Position numbers and translations under genes: made by a program. DNA of 34,523 nt from an uncultured Verrucomicrobiota bacterium (GTDB lineage: Bacteria; Verrucomicrobiota; Verrucomicrobiia; Limisphaerales; UBA9464), in the NCBI GenBank assembly GCA_903854475.1, contig CAINWP010000138.1, forward strand, positions 1 through 34,523, in the 5' to 3' direction. The notes under the pieces were generated by a model. It saw nothing but the letters and a program-made list of their open reading frames with translations, was not told where the DNA came from and ran no database searches. This document shows positions 1,970-4,753 of the stretch, in pieces (position 1 is the stretch's first letter; each line of letters begins with the position of its first letter).

Positions 1970-3394
1970 GTGCCTTTCCGTGTTTCCTCCGGCATCACCT
2001 CAGCGCAAGATCGCCGGGTGACGCGACGGTCCCTCCTAGGTCGTCTGGCGCGGCAGTTGCCGGCCGGAGAATTAGTTTTCACTCCCGAAACTTTGGCGGC
2101 CCATGCGGGCGACAAGTGGTTTGCATCCCACCTGCCCGAAGCGGTGGCTCTGCCGGGTTCGGTGGAGTCGGTGTCACGAATCCTCGCCTTCGCCTCGAAG
2201 CACCAGATTCCGGTGACCCCCCGCGGTGCGGGGCATGGCTATGTTGGGGGGTGTGTTCCCATGCACGGCGGCATCGCTCTTTCCGTGGCGGGAATGAATC
2301 GAGTTCTAGAAATTAGCGCGGCGGATTTCGTGGCAGTGGTGCAACCGGGCGTGGTGACCGCCTCACTGCAAGAGGCTGTGGAACGGCAGGGACTTTATTA
2401 TCCGCCAGATCCGGCCAGTCGTGCTGATTGCTCCATCGGGGGCAACATCGCCACCAATGCCGGGGGGCCGCGATGCCTCAAGTACGGGGTGACTCGGGAT
2501 TACGTGATGGCTCTCCAGGTGGTGCTGGCTGATGGAACGGTGACCCGACTCGGTGGGCGGACCCACAAGAACAAGACGGGCTTCGATTTGCACCGCCTCT
2601 TCGTTGGGAGTGAAGGAATGCTCGGGGTAGTCACCGAAGCGACCTTGAAACTGCTGCCGCTCCCGGCCTACCGGGCCTGTGTCGGGGTGGGATTCCCCGA
2701 CATGAAGACGGCCGCCCGGGCGATCCGGGCCATTTTCGCTGCACGATTCCTGCCGAGCGCCTTGGAATTGGCCGATCGCTTCACGGTGGAAGCGGCCCGG
2801 CGTCGGACCGGATCCAAACTCCTGAAGGGCGCGGGTGCGTTGATGATTGTCGAGTTGGACGGTCGGGAGCGGGCCGTTCGCTCCGAAATCACCGAACTCA
2901 GCCGACTGCTTTCGGAGTTCCAGCCCACCTTTGTCCAACGCGGTCTGGGACCGGAGGGCTGTGAGCGTTTCTGGAAGTTACGCCGGGAGTTTAGTTACTC
3001 ACTGCGGGACACGGGACTGACCAAGTTGAACGAGGATGTCGTAGTGCCTCGCGGGTCGCTGGAAGCCTTGTTTCAACTTGGAGCCTCTCTCCAGAAAAAG
3101 CACGGCATTCAGGTGGCCTGCTTCGGGCATGCCGGAGACGGGAATATTCATGTGAACCTGATGCTCGATGAATCGGTTCCAGCGCAGCGCGAGGCGAGCG
3201 AACGGGCCCTCGATGAGTTGTTTCAAGGTGTCGTCGCGCTGGGGGGGAGCATCACGGGCGAGCACGGGGTGGGTTTGGCCAAAAAACCGTGGTGGAATAT
3301 CGCCGTCTCATCCGAATCCGATGCGCTGCATCGGCGGGTAAAGGCCGCCCTCGATCCGGCCGGCATTCTCAATCCAGGGAAATTCCTGGGCTAA
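1970..3394 (+). CDS. FAD-linked 2-hydroxyacid oxidase, GlcD/D-lactate dehydrogenase family
   Basis: This 474-residue flavoprotein belongs to the family that oxidises glycolate or D-lactate to the 2-keto acid. The PCMH-type FAD-binding domain (about 40-220) shows PRGAGHGYVGG and CSIGGNIATNAGGPRCLKYG. The C-terminal FAD-oxidase domain shows FGHAGDGNIHVNLM (about 385) and ITGEHGVGLAKK (about 435), and ends with the family's NPGKFL. No iron-sulfur domain is fused, so a GlcF-type partner would have to be elsewhere. The start is uncertain: GTG at 1970 is used, but GTG at 2018 would begin closer to where homologues start, and no strong ribosome site decides it. The exact substrate cannot be read from the sequence. 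Confidence 0.85.
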   Translation: MPFRVSSGITSAQDRRVTRRSLLGRLARQLPAGELVFTPETLAAHAGDKWFASHLPEAVALPGSVESVSRILAFASKHQIPVTPRGAGHGYVGGCVPMHGGIALSVAGMNRVLEISAADFVAVVQPGVVTASLQEAVERQGLYYPPDPASRADCSIGGNIATNAGGPRCLKYGVTRDYVMALQVVLADGTVTRLGGRTHKNKTGFDLHRLFVGSEGMLGVVTEATLKLLPLPAYRACVGVGFPDMKTAARAIRAIFAARFLPSALELADRFTVEAARRRTGSKLLKGAGALMIVELDGRERAVRSEITELSRLLSEFQPTFVQRGLGPEGCERFWKLRREFSYSLRDTGLTKLNEDVVVPRGSLEALFQLGASLQKKHGIQVACFGHAGDGNIHVNLMLDESVPAQREASERALDELFQGVVALGGSITGEHGVGLAKKPWWNIAVSSESDALHRRVKAALDPAGILNPGKFLG

Positions 3395-3415: not shown

Positions 3416-3760
3416 TTAATCTTCTTCGTCCCAGTGGAATTGGTGGAGTACTCGGTGGATGAGCGGGGTGAAGATCAGTGCTGCGGTCACGATGAAGACC
3501 AAACCCGCATAGAGGGCATAGCATCCGGCGAAGAGTTTGCCCAGGTCGGTCTTGGGCGTGTTCACCGGGCCCATCCCGCCCAGTAACATGGATGCATTGA
3601 GAAAGGCGTCCAGGGGGGACAAGTCTTCAAGTGCCATATAACCGGCCATGCCCCCGGCCAACGAGATGCCGAGCAATGCGATCGAGACCCCTACATGGAC
3701 CAGGAGGCGGCCCAAGAATTTCCGACTGTGCAGCGGGGTCTCCGTTCGGGTTTCGTACAT
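3416..3760 (-). CDS. Small two-helix membrane protein resembling a potassium-channel pore module
   Basis: The product is 114 residues with a hydrophobic helix at about 20-45, a short re-entrant-like segment, and a second helix at about 80-105. The segment DAFLNASMLLGGMGP followed by GKLFAGCYALYAGLVFI has the layout of the pore loop and inner helix of two-helix potassium channels. The filter signature TVGYG is missing, with LLGGMG in its place. It may therefore be a non-selective or non-conducting relative. This is inferred from pattern only. ATG at 3760 is used; a TTG lies two codons upstream. It is the last gene of the kdsC-lpt-hprK run, 17 bases after hprK. It ends 21 bases from the convergent oxidase gene. 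Confidence 0.6.
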   Translation of the reverse strand: MYETRTETPLHSRKFLGRLLVHVGVSIALLGISLAGGMAGYMALEDLSPLDAFLNASMLLGGMGPVNTPKTDLGKLFAGCYALYAGLVFIVTAALIFTPLIHRVLHQFHWDEED

Positions 3761-3777
3761 GGGCAAACAATGAAGGA

Positions 3778-4719
3778 CTAAAGGCGGGGGTTCATTTGCA
3801 TCATCAGGCGACGTTGCAAATCCTCAGCCGGGTTGACGCCGCTGAGTTTGAGTTTGGTGTGCAATGCGGCCACCTCGATGACCCGGGCAATGTCACGACC
3901 CGGCCGCACGGGCAAGTCCATGTGCGGAATGTCGATCCCTAGGTAATTCGTATACCCTTGATCCAAACCCAGACGGTCGATCTCGCCGGCTTTTTCCCAG
4001 ACCTTCAGCGTCACCGCCAAATCGACACGCTTTTCGGCGCGGATGGCGGCGACACCGAACAACGCGGCGACATCGATGATTCCAATGCCGCGCACCTCCA
4101 TGAGGTTGCGGGTGATGGTTTTGCCGGTACCGAAGAGTTCTTTGCCGTCGGCCAGTGTGAGGCAAACGATGTCGTCGCAAACGAGGCTGTGACCACGCTC
4201 CAGCAGCCCGAGCACCGCCTCGCTTTTACCAATTCCGCTCTCACCCTGGATGATCACGCCAATGCCTTGGATATCGACCATGCAGCCATGGATCTGAGTC
4301 CGAGGGGCAAACAGTTGCTCCAGCGCCAATGTGGCCTGGCTGATGAACTTCATCGTGACCAACTCCGTTTGGAACACGGGCACCCCTCGGCCGTCGGCAG
4401 CAGCTAGGAACTCCGGTTCCGGGCGGATGCCACGGCAGAGCACGATGCAGGGGATCTTGTAGCGAAAGAGTTCGTTGTAGCGCTGTCGGCGGAGGTCCGG
4501 CTCGATGGAGCGCAGGTAGGAAGTTTCGACCGCTCCCAGCACCTGCACTCGCTTGTTGGCGAAGTAGCGGCGGAAACCGGCCAGGGCCAAACCGGGGCGA
4601 TTGACCGTAGGCTCCTGGATCAGACGGTTGAGGGAGTCTCCTCCGGTCAGTAATTTCAGTCCCAGCGGTCCAGCGTGGTCGGTGTAGAATTTCTCGACGG
4701 TGACGTTGGACGGTTTCAT
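3778..4719 (-). CDS. hprK: HPr kinase/phosphorylase
   Basis: HprK phosphorylates and dephosphorylates a serine of the phosphocarrier HPr and couples carbon or energy state to regulation. The 313-residue product has the usual N-terminal domain (about 1-130) with RPGLALAGF. The catalytic domain carries His144, the Walker A motif GESGIGKS (159-166), CDD at 181-183, the family signature LMEVRGIGIIDV (206-217) and VRPGRD near the end. All expected catalytic residues are present. ATG at 4719 is chosen because GAAAGGTG lies 6 bases upstream and homologues start with MKPS-like sequence; a GTG nine codons earlier is possible. It follows lptB by 34 bases. In Proteobacteria lptB is followed by rpoN, hpf and PTS regulators or hprK; here the middle genes are missing. 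Confidence 0.93.
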   Translation of the reverse strand: MKPSNVTVEKFYTDHAGPLGLKLLTGGDSLNRLIQEPTVNRPGLALAGFRRYFANKRVQVLGAVETSYLRSIEPDLRRQRYNELFRYKIPCIVLCRGIRPEPEFLAAADGRGVPVFQTELVTMKFISQATLALEQLFAPRTQIHGCMVDIQGIGVIIQGESGIGKSEAVLGLLERGHSLVCDDIVCLTLADGKELFGTGKTITRNLMEVRGIGIIDVAALFGVAAIRAEKRVDLAVTLKVWEKAGEIDRLGLDQGYTNYLGIDIPHMDLPVRPGRDIARVIEVAALHTKLKLSGVNPAEDLQRRLMMQMNPRL

Positions 4720-4753
4720 AGGCGGCACCTTTCGGAGGTTCTTCACAGGTCCT

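Follow-up and report, generated by a model that had tools for sequence, protein, structure and literature searches.

A conserved Gly-Met-Gly-Pro loop in a small two-helix protein related to NaK-type pores, a probable simple ion channel of an unnamed kind

The open reading frame at positions 3416..3760 (minus strand) of the window, by which we mean the whole stretch of 34,523 nt that was analysed, is a real gene, and the loop between its two transmembrane helices is under constraint. The product of 114 amino acids almost certainly belongs to the channel-pore superfamily. Probably it represents a simple type of ion channel that has no name so far, and not a partner of the sugar-regulation or envelope genes beside it. 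At about even confidence, we propose a minimal homotetrameric cation channel that would not be selective for K+ and might be gated by protons at a conserved set of histidines.

The gene begins at an ATG at 3760 and its stop codon ends at 3416. An alternative in-frame TTG at 3766 would give a product of 116 amino acids, and residues in the model, the alignments and the features are numbered from this TTG. Many relatives of the 114-residue frame share a start of MYE or MFE. These many relatives, dN/dS values of 0.05-0.20 in 21 pairwise comparisons (the window gene with six near relatives, and these relatives among themselves), and a confident AlphaFold2 model indicate that the frame is real and did not arise by chance. 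Relatives were encoded in 87 genome-contig stretches, and the 80 best of these were retained. The patterns behind this 80-locus set included part of the filter region, which biases the set toward the filter; whole-genome profile searches were made without that filter pattern, but with a profile built from the pattern-derived set. The relatives' gene is labelled 'hypothetical protein' in two annotated records. An earlier note on this DNA had described a helix, a loop and a helix with DAF, LLGGMG and GKLFA stretches, and the translation reads as described, the loop running on as GPV. That description did not contain the conserved, His-rich end of the second helix.

The case for homology to channels is built on sequence matches, and the predicted fold agrees with them. 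In a phmmer search of 177635 solved-structure sequences, the window protein alone matched the pore of a CNG-mimicking NaK (E 1.4e-5), and the same pore was matched by a 48-member family profile (hmmsearch, the same 177635 sequences) at E 1.2e-5. NaK-type or similar pore constructs filled the first 26 rows of both lists; TASK2 followed them in the family-profile list at E 0.019. Two other matches, to ATP synthase subunit a (E 0.096, family profile) and to 7jhj (E 0.23, single sequence), look like chance. Among solved structures, a NaK-type two-transmembrane (2TM) pore thus appears to be the closest relative, and the homology is well supported. The likeness to a channel pore claimed in the earlier note is upheld in this more specific form, NaK being the best structural match as well.

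The predicted model has the outer helix, pore helix, filter loop and inner helix of a NaK-type 2TM pore. The AlphaFold2 monomer (mean pLDDT 90.7, pTM 0.77) contains helices at residues 14-47, 51-62 and 74-115. Taken with conservation, these place the outer, or first transmembrane, helix (TM1) at residues 20-46 (3629..3709, minus strand), where G39 and G42 are invariant and Y43 is nearly so. The pore helix occupies residues 51-62 (3581..3616, minus strand) with D53, M60 and L62 nearly invariant, and the inner, or second transmembrane, helix (TM2) residues 76-100 (3467..3541, minus strand) with K77, F79, Y83, A84 and G88 nearly or fully invariant. Within a core set of 103 sequences, conservation along TM1 showed helical periodicity (shuffle P 0.009), and no significant periodicity at 90-110 degrees was found along TM2 (P 0.345). 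The top rows of a Foldseek search were mostly NaK chains at probability 1.00, with a best E of 7.3e-3 and no match at E <= 0.001. VIA-align gave Z 11.6 to 4zbm over 95 residues (rmsd 5.4 A), a value to be read with the caveat that Z below about 13 can reflect a mere common arrangement in helical proteins. Below it came more chains of NaK, of MthK and of other channels, and ion-channel chains made up 50 of 50 among the matches listed.

Pfam was not leaned on for the channel reading, because the best match to Ni_hydr_CYTB (E 0.00087; six of the 48 family members matched) was better than the best match to Ion_trans_2 (E 0.0018; 24 of the 48 matched at E <= 1). The comparison with the Ion_trans_2 profile (PF07885) suggested in the earlier note gave a split answer: the window protein does match this profile (E 0.028), yet its 14.7 bits fall below the gathering cut-off of 22.5 bits. 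Cross-matches to SieB, Ni_hydr_CYTB, CbtB and DUF7139 look like shared transmembrane make-up. At E values up to 10, NCBIfam yielded no match for the window protein; for the 48 members it gave no credible one (best E 0.013). Two proteins with Ion_trans_2 domains are encoded in the window's genome, on contigs other than that of this gene.

The loop that replaces TxGYG, G63-G-M-G-P-V68 (3563..3580, minus strand), was delimited from HMMER alignments and conservation. In the ungapped HMMER alignments, obtained with the single sequence and with the profile, GGMGPV lies over T-T-V-G-E-T of the CNG-mimicking NaK. Read in this register, the loop has the length of a CNG-type filter and keeps the filter glycine, with the second Thr changed to Gly and the Glu to Pro. 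The pattern across the family is [G/S/T/A]-G-M-G-P-[V/L]; a K+ filter is longer by one residue. Residue counts were made on 124 distinct sequences, from which duplicates, the incomplete or interrupted L051, L114 and L172, and the later-fetched loci L184-L210 were excluded. GMG is kept in 120 of the 124. Position 64 is Gly in 123, position 65 Met in 120 (Gln in two, Leu and Glu in one each), position 66 Gly in 122 and position 67 Pro in 121. Among the later-fetched loci, GMGP was read in 20 family members and GNGP in two (L186 and L187). The core set used for column entropy, which further excludes L084, L085, L086 and L118 (103 sequences, Neff 78), had its lowest mean in the filter, at 0.44 bits. 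Next came the first half of TM2 (0.72 bits), the pore helix (0.91), then the His tail (1.09), the second half of TM2 (1.93) and TM1 (1.97), and the ends and turret reached 2.2-2.7 bits. The replacement of TVGYG by a non-standard filter, as reported in the earlier note, is real and is conserved in several phyla. L186 and L187, from the phylum of the Planctomyces locus L015, combine the GNGP filter with only one of the three histidines described below and represent a natural filter variant. The relative on a Thioclava nitratireducens plasmid (L084, 2868-5283) has GEG for GMG; its gene comes after a patatin-like gene and shares 4 nt with an MscS-type channel gene.

The inner helix ends in a second conserved motif, P101-x-x-H104-R-x-x-H108-x-x-H111 (3434..3466, minus strand). 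P101 is present in all 124 distinct sequences, H104 in 119, R105 and H108 in 121 each and H111 in 122. The protein stops at residue 116, five residues past H111. As the structural match to NaK reaches model residue 114, the residues of this motif would make up the last part of the inner helix itself, and from the channel fold it follows that this end is probably cytoplasmic. A Gloeothece member (L085) keeps GMGP and has lost all three histidines. In Proteus mirabilis H63 (L086:3440-4840) HRxLHxWH is kept and the gene lies between two universal stress protein (Usp) genes; the record is called a plasmid, yet is 4.08 Mb long and has only 45 features in its gene table.

These features suggest the following arrangement. 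Within the tetrameric cation-channel superfamily, the protein would make up a minimal pore-loop channel with two transmembrane helices per subunit, four copies being placed around a central pore. Its short, glycine-rich filter of CNG length would let monovalent cations through and favour K+ little or not at all, since the loop is without the filter threonine and the GYG stretch from which K+ sites are built. We consider conduction of cations somewhat favoured, and the lack of K+ selectivity an evenly balanced call. Four subunits would bring twelve histidines to, or just below, the inner gate, and protonation (or a metal ion) at these histidines might open or close it. Gating is the most speculative part of the proposal, and protons acting through the histidines are suggested only tentatively. 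We know of no characterised channel with Gly-Met-Gly-Pro filter chemistry. Within the open-licence literature, no paper was recognised as describing a GMGP pore-loop family, a weak negative given that scope. A bolder reading, possible but doubtful, is that free-standing small subunits in several phyla use the Gly-Met-Gly-Pro filter to select a species different from K+, such as Na+, protons, ammonium or a hydrated cation, with a ring of twelve histidines gating the pore from the inner side.

It is also conceivable, though rather unlikely, that, as the earlier note had allowed, the protein has a channel fold and does not conduct, acting instead as a regulatory subunit or as a proton- or metal-sensing anchor whose working part is the His-rich tail. 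The proline at the position of the filter Glu in the CNG mimic speaks for this, as the ion path may be closed there. So do two divergent members, L086 (Proteus) and L118, in which GMG is lost and the His motif kept, so that the tail may be of greater importance than the pore; one of the two has the Usp genes on both sides. However, no stretch in the core set is better conserved than the filter loop, and with such strict conservation a broken, non-conducting remnant is not expected. Moreover, no partner to be regulated recurs across clades, and the genome's two Ion_trans_2 proteins are encoded on other contigs. We prefer a conducting pore.

That the protein is a K+-selective channel we regard as improbable. 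In such a channel G-M-G would align with GYG, its carbonyls would still form K+ sites, and the altered letters would have little effect. The two glycines are nearly fully conserved at a GYG-like spacing around a middle residue that is M, rarely L or E, and N in L186 and L187, and hhalign against K+ channel pores indeed gave a gapped register with GMG over GYG. The probability of that alignment was low (34%), and its set of nine mixed pores, some without the first helix in the stretch taken, only shows that the register is uncertain. In contrast, the HMMER alignments to NaK are ungapped in the other register, which is preferred because the pore helix then has its usual length, although the matter is not fully settled. 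In addition, T-x-G-Y-G or T-x-G-F-G occurs at the loop in none of the 124 distinct sequences; the sole match to either pattern, in L044, lies near the N-terminus and outside the loop.

The gene lies behind hprK (3778..4746, minus strand; Pfam Hpr_kinase_N and Hpr_kinase_C, the latter at 9.1e-60), and the 17-base packing given in the earlier note is correct, as 17 nt separate the end of hprK at 3778 from the ATG at 3760. On the other side a convergent FAD-linked oxidase (1970..3394, plus strand; FAD_binding_4 and FAD-oxidase_C) marks the edge of the site. A joint function with HPr kinase or the LPS-export genes in envelope or energy regulation, as the earlier note had proposed, would suit this spacing and the presence of hprK beside the gene in seven other genomes of the genus, but it was rejected as highly improbable because the adjacency is not conserved past near relatives and the gene is decayed or missing at other such sites. 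hprK lies next to the gene at 7 of 80 loci, every one from a near relative, and in 8 of the 28 loci of the window's taxonomic family; the conserved neighbourhood looked for in the survey is thus confined to near relatives. Elsewhere the neighbours differ: trpC is the upstream neighbour in 11 loci and rsmA the downstream one in 11, mostly in Opitutae, pyrD lies upstream in five loci of a Verrucomicrobia group, and neighbours seen at a single locus include pntB, thyA, enolase, glyA and alaS. Neighbours were taken with a crude ORF caller from 108 loci, with 21 named near-duplicates left out, as frames on the same strand of at least 110 amino acids at a distance of at most 150 nt. This gave 56 upstream and 40 downstream neighbours, of which 48 and 36 were scanned with Pfam. 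The commonest families were DHO_dh and IGPS (three each) upstream and RrnaAD (six) downstream, and no recurrent partner gene across clades was found among these 48 and 36 neighbours.

Within the window's genus, 8 of 19 genomes carry the window-type gene, two carry a distant type (L156 and L165) and nine gave no match, some of the genomes being incomplete (G691, for example, at 79%). Eleven genomes are thus without the window-type gene; nine of these were searched for hprK (G692 and G696 lay outside the search) and all nine have it. At two sites (L175 and L176) about 25 N-terminal codons remain, with the usual start gone, and join directly onto the FAD oxidase at its end. At two more (L177 and L178) hprK faces the oxidase and there is no such gene between them. 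In L179-L183 neither the pore-loop gene nor the oxidase was found within 1.5 kb beside hprK. Because hprK is kept where the gene has decayed or is missing, the gene appears dispensable in the genus and not tied to hprK.

The family is distributed patchily across at least five phyla. Counting as a member any profile match at E < 1e-15, and with each draw of genomes including its seed genome, members were found in 23 of 288 genomes of the window's phylum (partial in G086 and in two pieces in G124) and in 28 of 50 genomes of the window's own taxonomic family (L172 has an internal stop). The corresponding counts were 5 of 398 in the phylum of the Burkholderiaceae locus L013, 5 of 246 in that of the Planctomyces locus, 11 of 198 in that of the Nitrospirae locus L048 and 32 of 247 in that of the Chlorobium locus L027 (several stops in G1299, partial in G1290 and G1342); the names given to these four loci come from their record titles. 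Weaker profile matches occurred in 12 genomes of the window's phylum and two of its taxonomic family, and in 1, 9, 28 and 37 genomes of the phyla of L013, L015, L048 and L027, respectively. These lie mostly in frames of about 335-430 amino acids, with a few shorter. All six that were read (L119 and L188-L192) have T[VI]G[YF][GQ] filters; in L188 and L189, frames of 335 and 374 amino acids, the filter is TVGYQ and not TVGYG.

In a tree built from 118 columns, with many forks open, the window clade (eight rows, support 99/95) falls within a part made up of Pseudomonadota rows, far from the remaining two members of its genus. Transfer of the window copy between phyla is likely. No sign of a phage origin was found: no match at E <= 0.01 occurred in 50,697 phage records, and the best E against PHROGs was 0.055. 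Two IMG/VR contigs (L113 and L114) encode relatives, the match in L114 being split over two frames. Four loci bear the titles Akkermansia muciniphila or Klebsiella pneumoniae (L005, L012, L029 and L032), and such MAG titles may be wrong; L005 and L029 have the window's gene order at high identity, and in the tree L012 and L032 are surrounded by environmental Pseudomonadota rows.

K+ channels are marked by the TxGYG filter, and where nature departs from it one can learn what filters need in order to select and to conduct. Filter design could be studied here in a natural system rich in sequences: the strict loop is nearly uniform across the family, and the subunit has about 114 residues. NirBac, the nearest precedent found, was described from three genes, compared with 124 distinct sequences of the GMGP family here. 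The family could also give a name to a gene now annotated as hypothetical.

Among known systems, the larger bacterial channels of Ion_trans_2 type (the frames of about 335-430 amino acids) account for most of the weak matches, which cover TM1, the pore helix and the filter region. They differ from the GMGP family, which has no filter like the T[VI]G[YF][GQ] of the six that were read, and we take these larger channels to include an RCK part. KcsA is a small 2TM channel and resembles the protein in this layout; its K+ filter and its sensor residues are other than those here. No chain named KcsA was among the phmmer or hmmsearch matches to solved-structure sequences. The proton sensors of KcsA, H25 and E118, are on the intracellular side (PMC5669632) and offer a precedent for a sensor at that place. 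In CNG channels a wider filter that passes partly hydrated ions is proposed as a reason for poor selectivity (PMC12375067). NirBac, from Anaeromyxobacter and Gemmatimonas, shares with the GMGP family, going by its published description, a non-TxGYG filter on a K+-channel scaffold. That study describes K+-channel relatives with oligomers consistent with tetramers, and two of the three genes as purified and non-selective, passing Na+, K+ and other monovalent ions (PMC4607889). NirBac proteins are homologous to KirBac and carry a Kir domain in the cytoplasm, whereas the protein here ends five residues after H111, and no Kir-type Pfam match was present among the matches listed for the window protein and the 48 members. 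The closest likeness is to NaK and its CNG-mimicking mutants (PDB 4zbm, 3k0d, 3e83 and others), which share the 2TM pore-loop layout, a similar size and the ungapped filter alignment. The filter, TVGDGN in wild-type NaK (PMC9822992) and TTVGET in the mimic, is GGMGPV here, and the conserved His-rich end of the inner helix is a further difference.
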